DNA from: an uncultured Verrucomicrobiota bacterium
Lineage (GTDB): Bacteria; Verrucomicrobiota; Kiritimatiellia; CAIQIC01; Lenti-01
Assembly: GCA_937860055.1 (NCBI GenBank)
Contig: CALMBO010000028.1
Span: forward strand, 147,881-211,880
Direction of reading: 5' to 3'
Length of the DNA stretch: 64,000 nt
Made by a program: the position numbers and the translations under genes. The notes beneath the pieces are model-generated. The model was given only the letters and a program-made list of their open reading frames with translations. It did not search any database and had not been told where the DNA came from. Below, in pieces: positions 24,164 to 54,143 of this stretch (its first letter is position 1; each line of letters begins with the position of its first letter).

Positions 24164-24202
24164 TCTCTCTGTGTTCTCTGCGCCCTCTGCGGCACTATAA
24201 TA

Positions 24203-24532
24203 TTCCGCGCGGGATACCGCTTCCGGCTCCACGGATCGGATCTCCCCGGCAAGCCGGACATCGTCCTGCCCAAATACCGGGCCGTCGTTTTCGTCCACGG
24301 CTGCTTCTGGCACCGGCACAAGGGTTGCAAGATTGCATCCACCCCCAAGAGCCACCGGAAGTTCTGGGCGGAGAAGTTCGCCCGGAACGTTGCGAACGAC
24401 CGCAGGCACGTCCGCCGCCTCCGCCGCCTGGGCTGGCGCGTGGCCATCGTCTGGGAATGCCAGCTCCGGCATCCCGACCGGGTCCAGGCCCGGCTGCGGA
24501 CAATCCTGACAGCCTGCCCGCCGCAGAGATGA
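24203..24532 (+). pseudogene. vsr: 5'-truncated very-short-patch repair endonuclease (Vsr)
   Basis: An open frame of 109 codons with no ATG, GTG or TTG start: it follows the stop of the SRA-HNH gene in the same frame. From GYRFRLHGSDLPGKPDIVLP onward it is unmistakably Vsr: RAVVFVHGCFWHRHKGC, FWAEKFARNVANDRR, LGWRVAIVWEC, with the catalytic Asp of PDIV and His of the HGCFWH motif kept. The N-terminal 35-45 residues of the family (MSRIRSKDT...) are missing and replaced by sequence of the TCTCTGCGCCCTCTGCGG repeat type. Vsr nicks T:G mismatches made by deamination of 5-methylcytosine, so an ancestral cytosine methyltransferase probably belonged to this island. It could be translated only by an unusual start; a pseudogene is more likely. 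Confidence 0.85.
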
Positions 24533-24558
24533 ATCCGGGGGAACCGGAATCCTTCCCT

Positions 24559-24660
24559 CGCAAAGGACGCCAAGTCCGCCAAGGTTCGATCCGGACCTTC
24601 AAGGGGTTCAGGATCCCGGGCGCCGTCTTCCACTTTGCGGCCTTTGCGATCTTGGTGTGA
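24559..24660. repeat. Gene-less element with inverted CGCAAAG-type ends
   Basis: Left end CGCAAAGGACGCCAAGTCCG then CCAAGG (9-bp period); right end, read inward on the other strand, TCACACCAAGATCGCAAAGG then CCGCAAAG, also with 9-bp period. The TCACACCAAG end is identical to the terminal repeat of the GxxExxY cassette at 47013. About 50 bp separate the ends. It looks like a small non-coding derivative of that cassette. The rest of the spacer to 24725 is T/C-rich and shows nothing. Confidence 0.65.
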
Positions 24661-38991: not shown

Positions 38992-40557
38992 TTAATAGGC
39001 CTTGGCCATTAATACCCGCTGCGCGCTGGGCTTGCCCGTCAGGATGCACTTCCCGGGTCCGCGCGCGGCCTCCGGGATCTGGTCTTCAAAAGGAATGCAG
39101 CGGATGCTGGTCTCGTAGCGCTTGGCCATCGCGTCCTCGTCCTCGTGCGTGCCCGCCCAGTGCACCCATGCGAATCCGCCGCCTTCGCCCTTGAAGAACG
39201 CCTCGAAGTCCTCCAGCGTGTCGATGATGCGCGTTTTCTTCTCGCGCATGGCAAAGGCGCGCGCGAGCAGATCCTTCTGCATCGTCTCCATCAGCGCCGT
39301 CATGCCGGCGATGGCTTCCGCGCGCGGCAGGAACTGCTTCTTGCGCTTGCGCAGGTCCTGTTCGCTCTCGCCATCCTTCTCCAGCACGAACCGGCGCACC
39401 ACGCACAACGAGCCCTTTTCGAGATCCTTCGGGCCCACTTCGATGCGCACGGGAACGCCCTTGCGCTCCCATTCGTAATACTTCGCGCCCGGCTGCAACC
39501 CCTCGCGGTCGTCCACCTTCACCGCCAGCCCCTGCGCCCGCAGCTCCGTCGCCGCCGCCTGGACCTCGGCCGTCGTCCGCGCCTGCTCGTCCGGCGTCTT
39601 GTAGATCGGCACGATCACCACCTGGATCGGCGCCAGCTTCGGCGGCAGGACCAGCCCGTTGTCGTCCGAATGCGTCATGATCAGCGCGCCCACCAGCCGC
39701 GTCGAGACCCCCCAGCTCGTCGCATGCACGTATTCCAGCTGGCCTTCCTTGTTCAGGAACTTCACGTCGGCGCTCTTGGCGAAGTTCTGGCCGAGATAGT
39801 GGCTGGTGCCCATCTGGAGCGCCTTGCCGTCCTGCATCATGCCCTCGATGCACTGCGTGTCGATCGCTCCGGCGAACCGCTCGCCCTCGGTCTTGCGGCC
39901 CCGCACCACCGGCACGGCCATCACGTTCTCCGCCACGTCGGCATAGACCGCCAGCATGCGCGAAACCTCCTCTCGCGCCTCCGCCTCCGTCGCATGGGCC
40001 GTGTGCCCCTCCTGCCACAGGAATTCCGCCGTCCGCAGGAACAGGCGCGTGCGCATCTCCCAGCGCACCACGTTCGCCCACTGGTTGATCAGCAGCGGCA
40101 GGTCGCGGTAGCTCTGGATCCAGCTCTTGTACTGCGCCCAGATGATCGTCTCGCTCGTCGGCCGCACCACCAGCGGCTCCTCCAGTTCGGACGCGGGGTC
40201 CACGCCGATCTTGCCGTCCACCGCCTTCAGCCGGTAGTGCGTCACCACCGCGCATTCCTTCGCGAACCCCGCCGCGTGCTCCTCCTCCTTCGCCAGGAAC
40301 GACAGCGGAATGAACAGCGGGAAATAGGCGTTCACGTGCCCCGTCGCCTTGAACCGGTCGTCCAGCTCGCGCTGCAGCTTCTCCCAGATCGCGTAGCCGT
40401 GCGGCTTGATCACCATGCACCCGCGCACCGACGAATGGTCCGCCAGGTCCGCCCTTTTCACAATGTCCAGGTACCACTGCCCGTAGTCCTGCGCCCGCGG
40501 CGTGATGCCGTCCGACGCCGTTGCCGGTTGCTGCTTCTGATTCTGCTGGTTGCTCAT
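38992..40557 (-). CDS. proS: Prolyl-tRNA synthetase, archaeal/eukaryotic-like type
   Basis: 521 residues from the ATG at 40557, 7 bases after AAAGGA. Class II motifs are present: motif 1 region [19 protein letters not shown], motif 2 [20 protein letters not shown], motif 3 in [20 protein letters not shown], followed by an HGTS-type anticodon domain ([13 protein letters not shown]). The C-terminal extension ends in Tyr (VLMAKAY), the mark of the short, non-editing ProRS of archaeal type; the bacterial INS editing domain is absent. A GxxExxY cassette lies 60 bp upstream of its start. Confidence 0.96.
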
Positions 40558-40571
40558 ATTCAAATCCTTTC

Positions 40572-41052
40572 AACGCAAGAGTCGCAAACGGCGCAAAAGA
40601 CACGCAAGCGCCGATCTTATAATCCATTTACCACCCGGTGAATTCCATCCTTCACAAATTTTTCGCCGAAATTCACGACCAATCCCAATTTCAATCCGGT
40701 CATTCTAAGATAGGTCAAAACCTGGGCTTCGAAGATTGCATGGTATTCCGCCGTCGCCTTGCACTCCACCACCACAGTTCCTTCCACCAGCAAATCCAAT
40801 CTCATCGGCGTTCCAAGACCGCGGCCCTTGTACTTGATCGGCACCTGAACTTGCCGCTGGACTTTCAGGCCCTTCTGCTCCAATTCCCAGGCCAACGATT
40901 CCTCGTACACGCCTTCCAGCAATCCCGGTCCGCCCAGCGTCCGATGCACTTCGATCGCGCACTCGTAAATCGCCCGGCTGACCTCGTTTTCCGCCATCCT
41001 TCATCCTGTCCGTCGTTTGCGTTCCTTTTGCGCCTCTTGCGTCCTTTGCGTT
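40572..41052. mobile_element. GxxExxY cassette A with 39-bp inverted CGCAAAG-unit ends
   Basis: Left end 40572-40610 and right end 41014-41052 are imperfect inverted repeats, 31 of 39 positions matching. Each is an array of four units of 9-10 bp around CGCAAAG (for example AACGCAAGAGTCGCAAACGG). Between them is only the GxxExxY gene. The cassette separates proS from icd, all on the minus strand. Mobility is inferred from this structure and from the second cassette at 47013. Confidence 0.6.
40617..40997 (-). CDS. GxxExxY family protein (PD-(D/E)XK-like)
   Basis: 126 residues. The name-giving motif is in GGPGLLEGVYEESLAWELEQ (G-x-x-E-x-x-Y). The core MRLDLLVEGTVVVECKA shows the D...ExK spacing of PD-(D/E)XK nucleases, and the end HAIFEAQVLTYLRMTGLKLG is typical. 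The function is unknown; the family is annotated as PDDEXK_3. It shares about half its residues with the copy at 47044. The start at 40997 follows ACAGGATGAAGG, which is part of the flank sequence. Nothing links it functionally to proS or icd. Confidence 0.93.
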   Translation of the reverse strand: MAENEVSRAIYECAIEVHRTLGGPGLLEGVYEESLAWELEQKGLKVQRQVQVPIKYKGRGLGTPMRLDLLVEGTVVVECKATAEYHAIFEAQVLTYLRMTGLKLGLVVNFGEKFVKDGIHRVVNGL

Positions 41053-41068
41053 AAACGGCTGTTCGCGC

Positions 41069-42331
41069 TCACATGTTCGCCGCGATCGCCGCGCCGAACT
41101 CCGAACACTTCACTTCCTTCGCGCCGGCCATCAGGCGGGCGAAGTCGTACGTCACCGTCTTCTGGGCGATGCTCTTCTCGACGCCGCGGAGAATCAGGTC
41201 CGCCGCCTCGGTCCAGCCCAGGTAGCGGAACATCATCTCGCCCGACAGGATCAGCGATCCGGGATTCACCTTGTCGAGGTTCGCGTACTTCGGCGCCGTC
41301 CCGTGCGTCGCCTCGAAGACCGCGCAGCCCGTCGCATAGTTGATGTTCGCGCCGGGCGCGATGCCGATGCCGCCCACGCACGCCGCCAGCGCGTCCGAGA
41401 TGTAGTCGCCGTTCAGGTTCAGCGTCGCGATCACGTCGTAGTCCGCCGGACGCGTCAGGATCTGCTGCAGGAAGGCGTCGGCGATGCAGTCCTTCACCAC
41501 GATCTTCCGGCCCGTCTTCGGATCCGCCAGCTCGTGCCACGGACCGCCGTCCAGCGGACGCGCCCCGAATTCGTCCCGCGCCGTCGCATAGCCCCAGTCG
41601 CGGAACGCCCCTTCCGTGAACTTCATGATGTTGCCCTTGTGCACCAGCGTCACGCTCTTGCGGCCGTTGTCCAGCGCGTAGCGGATCGCCGCCCTCACCA
41701 GGCGCCGGGTGCCTTCCTCCGACACCGGCTTGATGCCGATGCCCGAACTGCCCGGGAAGCGGATCTTCTTCACACCCATTTCCTTCTGCAGGAAGTCGAT
41801 CACCTTCTGCGCCTGGGCCGTGTAGGCCGCCCACTCGATGCCGGCATAGATGTCCTCCGCGTTCTCGCGGAAGATCACCATGTCCGTCTTTTCCGGATTC
41901 CTCACCGGGCTCGGCACCCCTTCAAACCAGCGCACCGGCCGCAGGCAGACGTAGAGGTCCAGCTCCTGCCGCAGCGCCACATTCAGGCTCCGGATGCCCC
42001 CGCCCACCGGCGTGGTCAGCGGGCCCTTGATCGAAACCAGGTAGTCCCGGCAGGCGGCCAGCGTCTCCGCCGGCAGCCACGTGTTCGGGCCATAGACGGC
42101 GTTCGCCTTCTCGCCCGCGTAGATCTCCATCCAGGCGACCTTCCGCTTCCCGCCATAGGCCTTTTCGACCGCCGCGTTCCACGCCATCATCGCCGCGCGT
42201 GTGATGTCCGGCCCCGTCCCGTCGCCTTCGATGAAGGGAAGGATCGGCCGGTCCGGCACCTGCAGCCGCCCGCCGGCGTCCATGGTGATCTTCTGCCCGT
42301 CCGCCGGAACCTTGATCTTGCTGTCGCTCAT
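41069..42331 (-). CDS. icd: Isocitrate dehydrogenase, NADP-dependent
   Basis: 420 residues, with AAAGGATGAAGAC before the ATG at 42331. It is close to E. coli Icd over the full length: [13 protein letters not shown], the phosphorylation/substrate loop [70 protein letters not shown]. The cofactor region [16 protein letters not shown] has the Lys-Tyr pair of NADP-specific enzymes. It decarboxylates isocitrate to 2-oxoglutarate. No other TCA gene is close. A TTTTCCAC repeat pair lies 25 bp upstream of its start. Confidence 0.97.
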
Positions 42332-42980: not shown

Positions 42981-42999
42981 GAAAACTCCTCCCAAGATT

Positions 43000-43031
43000 C
43001 CAGTCCCGCATATTATAATATCCGGGACTGG
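43000..43031. promoter_or_regulatory. 32-bp palindromic operator, proximal copy
   Basis: CCAGTCCCGCATATTATAAT continuing to TATCCGGGACTGG; 30 of 32 positions are palindromic. The core contains TATAAT on both strands, so it could include the -10 of the regulator gene 20 bp away. Confidence 0.75.
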
Positions 43032-43080
43032 ATTTCAAGGAAGGTTTTCTTCGAATTCACCTTTGTTTTCAATCAAAACA

Positions 43081-43110
43081 AGTCCCGCATATTATAATAT
43101 CCGGAACTGG
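43081..43110. promoter_or_regulatory. 30-bp palindromic operator, distal copy
   Basis: AGTCCCGCATATTATAATAT then CCGGAACTGG. It matches the proximal copy except at one position in the right arm (GGAACTGG for GGGACTGG). It starts 79 bp after the corresponding base of the first copy (43002) and 119 bp before radC. Confidence 0.75.
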
Positions 43111-43199
43111 ACCGGTGCCTCGGGAAGGAAGGCCGTCCATCCGTCCCCGGCGGCGTTCGGACTGTTCAAGCGCCATGCGCTGCCCTATCCTCTTCCCCC

Positions 43200-46996: not shown

Positions 46997-47012
46997 GACG
47001 GCCTCTTCAAGG

Positions 47013-47461
47013 AAAACTCACACCAAGCCGCGAAGCCGCCAAGATGACCGAAAACGAAATCGGGAAAGTCGTGGTGGACTGTGCGGTCAATCTCCACAAG
47101 GCGTTGGGCCCCGGTCTGCTGGAATCGGTTTACGAAGTTGTTTTGGCCCATGAACTTGAACGGCAGGGCTGTTCGGTTTCCCGGCAAGTGCCAATCCCGA
47201 TTCAGTTCCAAGGCATCCGATTCGATGAAGGATTTCGCGCGGACATGGTCGTGGACGGGAAAGTGATTCTGGAGTTGAAGTCCGTCGAGCAAACAACCCG
47301 CGCCCATGCAAAACAGGTTCTGACCTACTTGAGACTGACCGGCATGAAACTCGGCTTCTTGTTGAATTTCGGCGAAGCCTTGATGCGGGATGGAATTTCC
47401 CGGGTCATCAATGGGGATCTCCAGTGAACTCTCCGTGCCTTCGTGACTTGGTGTGAGAATT
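47013..47461. mobile_element. GxxExxY cassette B with terminal inverted repeats
   Basis: CTCACACCAAG at 47017-47027 is exactly inverted at 47447-47457 (CTTGGTGTGAG), and 3 bases further inward CGAAG / CTTCG also pair; AAAA / TTTT flank both ends. The single gene fills the interior. The same TCACACCAAG end occurs in the gene-less element at 24559. The element sits between the nuclease gene and ispA, 18 bp before the ispA start. Confidence 0.65.
47044..47427 (+). CDS. GxxExxY family protein (PD-(D/E)XK-like)
   Basis: 127 residues starting MTENEIGKVVVDCAVNLHKA. The motif is in GPGLLESVYEVVLAHELERQ. FRADMVVDGKVILELKSVEQ gives the D...ExK nuclease-like core, and AKQVLTYLRLTGMKLGFLLN the conserved end. 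It is complete, so the cassette is not decayed. The start codon directly abuts the left array (CCGCCAAG-ATG), so the inverted end supplies the 5' untranslated region; no Shine-Dalgarno is apparent. The biochemical activity of the family is unknown. Confidence 0.94.
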   Translation: MTENEIGKVVVDCAVNLHKALGPGLLESVYEVVLAHELERQGCSVSRQVPIPIQFQGIRFDEGFRADMVVDGKVILELKSVEQTTRAHAKQVLTYLRLTGMKLGFLLNFGEALMRDGISRVINGDLQ

Positions 47462-47479
47462 TTTTAAGGAACATTCAAC

Positions 47480-48352
47480 GTGTTTGACCTGAACATCTAC
47501 CTGGCCGATGGCTCCCGCTGGATCGAAACCGCCCTCGATCGCCTCGTCCCGCCTGCCTTCACCCGCCCCGACTCCCTCCACGCCGCCATGCGCCACAGCC
47601 TCTTCGCCGGCGGCAAGCGGCTCCGCCCCATCCTCTGCGCCGCCGCCGCCGAAGCCTGCGGCGCCCCCCGCGACGCCGCCCTCCTCCCCGCCGCTGCCAT
47701 CGAATGCCTCCACACCTATACCCTCATCCACGACGACCTCCCCTGCATGGATGACGACGATCTGCGCCGCGGCCTCCCCACCTGCCACAAGGTCTACGGC
47801 GAAGCCACCGCCCTCCTCGCCGGCGACGCCCTCCAGGCCCTGGCCTTCGAACTCGCCGCCCGCACTCCCGTCCACGCCCTCGACATCGTCCGTGAACTCG
47901 CCGCCGCCGCCGGCTCCACCGGCGTCGTCGGCGGCCAGGTCGAGGACATGCTCGGCGAACATCTCCCACCCGACGAATCCCGCCTCCGCTTCATCCAGCA
48001 GCACAAGACCGGCGATCTCATCGTCTGCGCCTGCCGCATGGGCGTCCTCGCCGCCGCCGGCCCCGCCCCCGCCCTCGAGGCCGCCACCCGCTACGCCTCC
48101 GCCATTGGCGAGGCTTTCCAGATCGCCGACGACATCCTCAATGCCACCGCCACCGCCGAACAGCTCGGAAAGGCCGTCGGCACCGACGCCGCGCGCGAAA
48201 AAACCACCGCCCTCTCCGTCCATGGCATGGAAGGCGCCAAAAGGCGCCTCCAGGAATTGACCGGCGAAGGCCTCGCCGCCCTTTCCGGATTCCCCGGCGG
48301 CACCGATCCCCTCGCCGCCCTCGCCCGCCACGTCGCCTCGCGGAAGAACTAG
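47480..48352 (+). CDS. ispA: Polyprenyl (farnesyl/geranylgeranyl) diphosphate synthase
   Basis: 290 residues from a GTG at 47480 with TAAGGA 9 bases ahead. Short-chain trans-isoprenyl synthase: FAGGKRLRPILC, first aspartate-rich motif LIHDDLPCMDDDDLRRGLPT, second aspartate-rich motif FQIADDILNATAT, and KTGDLI. The two residues after the first DDxxxxD (bacterial FPP type insertion PCMD) are as in IspA. Product length, C15 or C20, cannot be fixed by eye. Its translation-initiation region is contiguous with the right end of GxxExxY cassette B. Confidence 0.95.
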   Translation: MFDLNIYLADGSRWIETALDRLVPPAFTRPDSLHAAMRHSLFAGGKRLRPILCAAAAEACGAPRDAALLPAAAIECLHTYTLIHDDLPCMDDDDLRRGLPTCHKVYGEATALLAGDALQALAFELAARTPVHALDIVRELAAAAGSTGVVGGQVEDMLGEHLPPDESRLRFIQQHKTGDLIVCACRMGVLAAAGPAPALEAATRYASAIGEAFQIADDILNATATAEQLGKAVGTDAAREKTTALSVHGMEGAKRRLQELTGEGLAALSGFPGGTDPLAALARHVASRKN

Positions 48353-48553
48353 GGCGGTTTTGGAAATTCATGGCCGGGACGAACCTGTCCGGCTGTCATC
48401 CCGAGCCTGTCGAGGGATCTCGGCCCATGCAATCGTCTGGCCGTGGTCCCGAAGCCGAGATGTTTCAACTCCGGCGCGATGCGCCTCCGCTCAACATGAC
48501 CCGGGGACGTCCGACGGGACCCGGGACTTCCCGGCTTGGCGGGAAGACGGCGG
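48353..48553. other. Intergenic spacer with a dispersed-type TGTCATCCCGAG motif
   Basis: The spacer between convergent ispA and folB. It contains TGTCATCCCGAGCCTGTCGA then GGGATCTCGG, a phrase of the type often dispersed in large bacterial genomes. Only one copy is in this window. No hairpin with a T-run is evident. Confidence 0.35.
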
Positions 48554-52857: not shown

Positions 52858-54143
52858 GACAGCTTCACCCTCGGATCCACCCACGCCAGCGCGACGTCCG
52901 CCAGGATGTTCGCCGCCGTGAACAGCAGCGCCCCCACCAGCACCACCGCCCGCACCACATCCACGTCCGACGAATGGATCGCGTTCAGGCTCAGGTACCC
53001 CAGCCCCGGAATCCCGAAAAAGCTCTCCAGCAGCAGGCTGCCCGTGTAGAGGAACGGCAGCGCCAGCGCGACGTTGACGATGACCGGTCCCAGCGCGTTC
53101 TTCAGCACATGCTTGAACAGCACGCGCCCCTCCCCCAGGCCCTTCGCGAACGCCGTGCGCACGTAGTCCTTGTGCATCTCCTCCAGCAGGATCGTCCGGT
53201 AGAAACGCACGTTCGAACCCAGCCCCGTCGCCACGCCGATCAGCACCGGCAGCAAAAGGTTCTTCCACGACTCGAAGCCCCACACGGGGAACCAGCCGAG
53301 CCTGTACGCCAGCACGTACTGCCCGAACACGATCCAGACCAGGTAGTTCACGCTCATCAGCGCCACGCACACCGCGACGAGGCTCCGGTCCAGCCACGAC
53401 CCGCGCCGGTACGCGCACAGCAGCGCCAGGACCAGGCTCGCAACAAGCTCCACGGCGAGGATGGGCACCGTCAGCGCCAGGCTCGGCCCGATCCCCGCCC
53501 GGAGCAGGCCCCGCACCGGCTGGTTCAGGCTCGTGCTCGTGCCGAAATCCAGCCGCAGCACCCGCCCCGCGTAATCCCACAGCTGGCTGTCGAAGAAATG
53601 CCGCGTCGCTTTTTCCAGCCGCACGCTTTTGATCTCCGCCACGCCGCCTTCCGCGCGGAAACCCGGTTTTTCCACACCGTGGAAAACTTTTTTCCATGCT
53701 GTGGAAAAATCGCCCGTTTTTTTCCACACCGTGGAAAACTTTTTTCCACACGGTGGAAAACCGGGGCCGCCGCCTTCGACCGTCAGCCGCCAGCGCTCCC
53801 CCTCCGGCAGCGGAAACGCCAGGGGAATCACCAGTTCCTGGCCATCCTCCAGCCGCAGCGGTCCGCTTTCCCCCGCCCCCCACCGGGCGCGCACGCTCGG
53901 CGGCGCATCCCCGAAATCCACTTCTTCCAGCGCGCGCGTCTTGGTCCAGTTCCCGAAAAACAGCGGCTTGTCATAGCCCCTCGCCGCGTCGAACTCCTCC
54001 AGCGCGCGCGCGCCGGCATTCTGCCCCAGCACCATCGCCGCCGGACTGCCCCCCACCACGTTGAACAGGAGAAACGTGACCAGCACGACCCCGGCCACCG
54101 TCGGGATCGCCTGCAAAAGCCGCCTGGCTACATAGCGCCACAT
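52854..54143 (-). CDS. Oligopeptide-type ABC transporter permease (OppB/YejB-like) with in-frame repeat insertion
   Basis: 429 residues. MWRYVARRLLQAIPTVAGVV is the usual OppB start. After the first helix there is a long periplasmic stretch (about residues 40-210), then five helices and the EAA loop RTAFAKGLGEGRVLFKHVLK. Part of the periplasmic stretch, about residues 130-160, is translated from four copies of the TTTTCCAC palindrome and reads FPPCGKKFSTVWKKTGDFST then AWKKVFHGVEK. The frame is preserved. YejB-type permeases do have an extended periplasmic domain, so the insertion sits in a tolerant place. First gene of the permease pair. Confidence 0.93.
   Translation of the reverse strand: MWRYVARRLLQAIPTVAGVVLVTFLLFNVVGGSPAAMVLGQNAGARALEEFDAARGYDKPLFFGNWTKTRALEEVDFGDAPPSVRARWGAGESGPLRLEDGQELVIPLAFPLPEGERWRLTVEGGGPGFPPCGKKFSTVWKKTGDFSTAWKKVFHGVEKPGFRAEGGVAEIKSVRLEKATRHFFDSQLWDYAGRVLRLDFGTSTSLNQPVRGLLRAGIGPSLALTVPILAVELVASLVLALLCAYRRGSWLDRSLVAVCVALMSVNYLVWIVFGQYVLAYRLGWFPVWGFESWKNLLLPVLIGVATGLGSNVRFYRTILLEEMHKDYVRTAFAKGLGEGRVLFKHVLKNALGPVIVNVALALPFLYTGSLLLESFFGIPGLGYLSLNAIHSSDVDVVRAVVLVGALLFTAANILADVALAWVDPRVKLS
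53668..53760. repeat. Palindromic TTTTCCAC repeat quadruplet, locus 5, inside a coding region
   Basis: Copies begin at 53668, 53690, 53720 and 53742, so start-to-start spacings are 22, 30 and 22 bp. The second copy has TTTTCCAT in its left arm. The whole array lies in the periplasmic loop of the OppB-like gene. Confidence 0.92.

Follow-up and report, generated by a model that had tools for sequence, protein, structure and literature searches.

GxxExxY nucleases and the inverted arrays of heptamer-like units that flank their genes apparently make up a previously unrecognised dispersed-repeat system that is widespread in bacteria. We lean towards the view that, in many phyla, a code of heptamer letters and spacing is read by a solitary PD-(D/E)XK nuclease, which propagates the DNA bounded by its paired convergent arrays, and that protein lineages have diverged in code so that one genome can accommodate several private systems. 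The system probably works like REPIN-RAYT, with an unrelated nuclease and with iterated, not palindromic, repeats, and cassette A would be a master locus. Within the open-access literature, no description of a GxxExxY array system was found. Cassette A and a second element, cassette B, are both located in the window, i.e., the whole stretch of DNA analysed (64,000 nucleotides, from an uncultured Verrucomicrobiota bacterium). The features are summarized in Table 1.

Table 1. Features of the window discussed in the text (window coordinates).
Feature	Position	Strand	Remarks
Single array	24167..24191	-	CGCAGAG-CGCAGAG-CACAGAG
Gene-less array pair, left arm	24559..24583	+	Spacing 9, 9
Gene-less array pair, right arm	24633..24657	-	Spacing 9, 9
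proS	38992-40563		Neighbour of cassette A; named from translation
Cassette A, whole	40568-41058		Between proS and icd
Cassette A end array, 3' side of nuclease gene	40568..40612	+	Four units, CGCAAGAG, CGCAAACG, CGCAAAAG, CGCAAGCG; spacing 9, 9, 11; also found by own-type pattern search
Cassette A GxxExxY gene	40617..40997	-	126 aa; TIGR04256, PF13366
Cassette A end array, 5' side of gene	41014..41058	-	Mirrored; units CGCAAAGG, CGCAAGAG, CGCAAAAG, CGCAAACG; spacing 9, 9, 11; also found by own-type pattern search
icd	41069-42331		Neighbour of cassette A; named from translation
Cassette B, whole insertion	46998..47480		Orthologous spot in four congeners lacks the insertion
Cassette B left array	47017..47043	+	CACCAAG-CGCGAAG-CGCCAAG; spacing 8, 8; abuts start codon
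Cassette B GxxExxY gene	47044..47427	+	127 aa; second of the window; PF13366
Cassette B right array	47431..47457	-	CACCAAG-CACGAAG-CACGGAG; spacing 8, 8

As originally predicted, cassette A lies between two housekeeping genes, and the GxxExxY ORF is the only gene within it. The predicted inverted match of its ends was reproduced: of the 39 positions of 40572-40610, 31 agree with 41014-41052 read in reverse complement, and the flank-versus-flank local score of 26 compares with a mean of 10.1 (sd 1.4) and a maximum of 19 in 5000 composition-preserving shuffles. When extended, the arms (40566-40613 and 41011-41058) span 48 nt with 77% complementarity and lie 397 nt apart. The description of each end as four CGCAAAG-like units of 9-10 bp held for the four mirrored units, but the form CGCAA-RVG fits the letters better. 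The units start at 40574, 40583, 40592, and 40603 on the + strand and at 41050, 41041, 41032, and 41021 on the - strand, with a spacing of 9, 9, and 11 that is an exact mirror between the two ends.

The encoded protein matches TIGR04256 (137.4 bits, curated cut-off 35, E=2.5e-40) and PF13366 (PDDEXK_3; 128.9 bits, curated cut-off 22, E=1.6e-37) and carries the motif residues D68, E78xK80, and Q92xxxY96. Among 111 GxxExxY sequences, G25, E28, Y31, K80, and N109 are invariant, while D68, E78, Q92, and Y96 occur in 90% or more; this conservation of catalytic residues suggests an intact active site. The AF2 model (pLDDT 96.5) has an alpha-beta-beta-beta-alpha-beta core, and the nearest solved folds identified by Foldseek were Cas4 SSO0001 (TM 0.6) and lambda-type exonucleases, all with E values of 2e-3 or above; no solved homologue was found by sequence. 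The D...ExK active site and the core fold expected of a PD-(D/E)XK-like protein are thus both present, and the protein is predicted to be a small Cas4/lambda-exonuclease-like nuclease of this type. Searches against the PADLOC models of anti-phage defence gave no match for the cassette A protein, and for the cassette B protein only a match to a reverse-transcriptase-associated PDDEXK model with E=0.0013. GxxExxY reading frames often extend into the end array, so that the protein ends in a tail of translated repeats, for example PVNPVNPV or HSCHSCDS (L049, L025, L002, and L074).

Five PF13366 genes are present in the source genome (3.05 Mb), all five with inverted end arrays and each with a unit of its own: CGCAA-RVG (cassette A), CRCNAAG (cassette B), CACAGAG, CACGGAG, and ACGAAT. 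Homogeneous CGCAAAG repeats as a general rule are ruled out, since the unit differs per element. A check for empty sites showed that cassette B is a clean insertion. Its site is empty in four congeners (G001, G004, G005, and G006), where the flanking genes are 10-14 bp apart; no target duplication was recognised in this comparison, in which the intergenic spacer is short and diverged. In G004, a GxxExxY gene whose DNA is 70% identical to cassette B (C75:53712-54073, L050) is located across the polyprenyl synthase gene, on its opposite side.

Arrays are also found apart from the gene. A high-cut-off scan had given the impression that they are confined to it, which was overturned by a search with the unit pattern. 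Three CRCNRAK units with gaps of 1-3 nt occur 27 times in the source genome, with a maximum of 344 occurrences among relatives, compared with 0-4 matches per genome for the reversed control pattern. Many of the matches form convergent pairs around a short loop that contains no gene, and 28 of 29 opposite-strand array pairs within 200 bp have the convergent order of a cassette. The cassette A unit type itself occurs in two gene-less miniatures of the source genome (C17:11302-11391 and C28:224880-224978), one of which is complete, with four units in either arm. On visual inspection, a Vsr-like endonuclease frame, adjoined by the end of an HNH-like frame, is situated between the single array and the gene-less pair at 24167-24657 of the window.

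The number of arrays goes with the presence of the gene. The median is 51 arrays (15 per Mb) across the 42 genomes that carry a GxxExxY gene and 2.5 arrays (1 per Mb) across the 14 in which no gene was detected (p=4e-6), a contrast to be read as a correlation because family members share other genome features. Within the same family, genomes with and without the gene have 344 and 2, 148 and 1, 115 and 2, and 76 and 1 arrays, respectively. Five genomes without a detected gene keep 17-60 arrays, which could be relics or reflect undetected genes. The type of array follows the gene as well: the arm type of the resident gene of one genome, G035 (AAATCACAAAGGACACAAAGGACACAAAGG), has 61 copies in that genome, one in G034, and none in the other 54 genomes. 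Similarly, the cassette A type is abundant only in genomes that have its gene or a close relative of it, with gene-less pairs in G000, and outside its family it gave one match in 39 genomes. G035 also contains intergenic mosaics in which the array types CACGAAG, CACAGAG, and CACAAAG stand side by side (L444-L451), as if elements insert beside each other.

Other dispersed repeats were observed in the same DNA. A MITE-like family unrelated to the heptamer arrays consists of two palindromes, AGTCCCGCATATTATAATATGCGGGACT, separated by about 50 bp (window 42999-43111; C28:137535, 216711, 252919, 272117, 287307, 295012, and 298296). Hairpins of the form TTTTCCAC-NNN-GTGGAAAA occur at 53655-53773 of the window and at C28:127864 and 221319, and a repeat some 110 bp long (TGTCATCCCGAGCCTGTCGAGGGATCT...; window 48390-48504) is dispersed, with about 75-87% identity, over many sites in the source and related genomes.

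Outside the source genome, GxxExxY genes were found in 42 of 56 related genomes, with up to nine copies each, and a scan of GTDB genomes gave 80 loci with titles including Acidobacteria, Chloroflexi, Planctomycetes, Bacteroidetes, Cyanobacteria, Geobacter, and Nitrospiria. Inverted arms (score of 17 or more) are present at 125 of the 149 loci with usable flanks, which come from many phyla; flanks paired at random between loci gave a 95th percentile score of 17-18. Some arms are identical across 36-52 nt including the spacers, and others have diverged so that the unit core alone is kept. The family was found in eight of 72,556 plasmid records and in none of 50,697 phage records, by which phage or plasmid cargo is ruled out; viral contigs gave two matches.

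The cassette A locus is kept in six genomes of three genera. It is found at icd-proS in G000, G001, G013, and G015 and, frameshifted, in G003, while the G012 contig has it after icd but breaks off short of proS. G009 retains a deletion remnant of the gene and of one array at the locus, G006 and G010 have clean icd-proS spacers, and the spacer of G004 contains a gene-less pair with a different unit, CAGGAAA. The dN/dS ratios are 0.06-0.12 for the cassette A set and 0.03-0.25 for other GxxExxY genes, values that are rough because dS approaches or exceeds saturation for several pairs. Cassette A is inherited vertically, is subject to purifying selection, and has been lost in places. Closely related elements are mostly orthologous pairs, and gene-bearing copies thus seldom move. 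The original prediction regarded cassette A as a selfish element or an undescribed nuclease-repeat system. The single-gene nuclease cassette, its structured ends, the dispersed repeats, and the open-access literature agree with the latter, but conservation at icd-proS and purifying selection show that this copy has not been mobile recently as a selfish element. For the selfish-element half, synteny with vertical descent is what the original prediction itself had named as contrary evidence. In the cassette A family, AACAGCC repeats recur next to arrays (L079 of G012 and several array borders), and in G012 (L079) the 5' array and AACAGCCG are triplicated in tandem.

The strong purifying selection and the long retention by vertical descent would also suit a repeat-binding nuclease that serves the host in repair, homogenisation, or regulation, with useful arrays spread by general recombination and not mobilised by the nuclease. 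Near absence from plasmids and phages and local tandem copies of arrays, e.g., those of G012, point the same way. However, dispersed copies specific to genomes with the matching gene, as well as the clean insertion of cassette B, need some mobility, and we consider such a purely host-serving role unlikely. Propagation of array-bounded DNA by the nuclease is the reading we prefer, and the unit code bears on it further.

Across elements, the common unit is C-R-C-N-R-A-K. Exact units are present in both arms of 42 elements, 41 of which have mirrored spacing (shuffles 11.4 +/- 2.5). Left-right identity at unit positions 2, 5, and 7, analysed in 91 elements, is 0.92-0.97 within an element and 0.47-0.60 between arms of different elements with equal spacing; the corresponding agreement is 0.56 and 0.34 for the spacers and 0.37 and 0.28 for the inner flank just inside the array. 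On the protein tree, unit position 7 requires 12 changes (42 when shuffled), unit position 2 requires 21 (43), and the spacing 40 (64), and the Mantel rho is 0.35 (permutation maximum 0.15). Letters and spacing thus track the protein tree. Co-descent of gene and ends predicts this too, and the result therefore shows that the two form one unit but is no proof of binding. Flank alignment and the spacing test were used in place of a paired-array score, which separated own from mismatched arms poorly because many elements share units, and residue-versus-letter statistics were set aside because they are confounded by descent.

These data also bear on whether another enzyme, e.g., a RAYT or IS transposase, mobilises the arrays and the GxxExxY gene is a passenger between them. 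Mobility itself was not observed, and REP families are reported in related phyla (PMC3733652), both in line with a passenger. Yet the element-specific letters and spacing common to both arms track the GxxExxY tree, GxxExxY is the sole gene inside, and array load goes with it, which makes the passenger role improbable. The inverted arms might instead be kept as an RNA stem around the transcript, for stability or termination, and the RNA of 40560-41060 does fold better than its shuffles (z=-2.9), its ends pairing in the terminal stem. A stem would need paired spacers too, however, whereas the arms differ at unit position 4 and in the spacers but retain the core letters and the spacing, and gene-less copies have no transcript of their own; we regard this explanation as similarly improbable. 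The pattern of agreement between arms is, judged from the sequences, what protein recognition would leave, unlike a base-paired stem. That cassette A is ordinary vertical intergenic sequence with chance similarity of its ends, as its synteny at icd-proS in six genomes might suggest, can practically be dismissed, because the shuffles and the mirrored spacing exclude chance, the arrays are retained along with the gene, gene-less copies exist elsewhere, and all other evidence is contrary.

In the mechanism that we propose for nuclease-driven propagation, the GxxExxY protein would recognise its own array through 3-4 heptamer-like units that follow one another at intervals of roughly one helical turn, array letters and spacing being specific to the protein lineage. 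Two convergent arrays would delimit one DNA unit, and the nuclease would act on this array-bounded DNA, which would thereby be duplicated or relocated within the genome. The units moved would mostly be gene-less miniatures of about 70-200 bp and only rarely the gene-bearing cassette, and the gene itself would otherwise be vertical, low-copy, and selected, in the way that RAYT transposases maintain REPINs. We infer DNA binding, cleavage, transposition, and causation of the spread by the GxxExxY protein; the nuclease may be bound to the repeats, cut at them, or be directed by them. If this is true, a large family known only by its sequence motif acquires a function, the numerous intergenic heptamer arrays of environmental bacterial genomes are accounted for, and a REPIN-RAYT lifestyle has evolved independently around an unrelated nuclease. 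With its lineage-specific letters and spacing, represented by hundreds of protein-array pairs in nature, the code would make sequence recognition by a 126-aa nuclease directly testable and possibly decodable.

Among known systems, nucleases of the Cas4, lambda-exonuclease, and RecB types have the fold and the QxxxY motif in common with the GxxExxY protein, which differs in being a stand-alone protein of 126 aa flanked by its own arrays, with no adjoining CRISPR or recombination partner. Insertion sequences with MITEs likewise have a gene between terminal inverted ends, miniatures, and clean insertions with empty sites, but GxxExxY elements have no recognised transposase and hardly any recent gene-bearing copies, are nearly absent from plasmids and absent from the phage records, and no target-site duplication or transposition intermediate was seen among the elements analysed. 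The TAACTGA repeats of Beggiatoaceae (PMC4679880) are also intergenic heptamer arrays; they are strictly direct, lie near start codons, and do not form inverted pairs, and no nuclease is reported there. The closest likeness is to REPIN-RAYT (REPtrons; PMC3116915, PMC8049555). Both have a nuclease gene between inverted repeats, dispersed gene-less inverted doublets (convergent here in 28 of 29 close pairs), and distinct low-copy genes with a repeat type each; both are inherited vertically and not carried on plasmids, and in both, genomes with the gene have more repeats, of the type that matches the gene. Based on this point-by-point match, we propose that GxxExxY nucleases spread or maintain array-bounded DNA of their own code. 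RAYTs are HUH tyrosine transposases with palindromic REPs carrying a GTAG tag as substrates (PMC3116915, PMC8049555), whereas cassette A has no HUH Y1 (RAYT) transposase, only the PF13366 gene, and its repeats are 3-4 iterated non-palindromic heptamers with a lineage-specific code of letters and spacing in place of a tagged palindrome. The GxxExxY system is thus not a member of REPIN-RAYT; it has a like organisation, built from a different nuclease and a different repeat.
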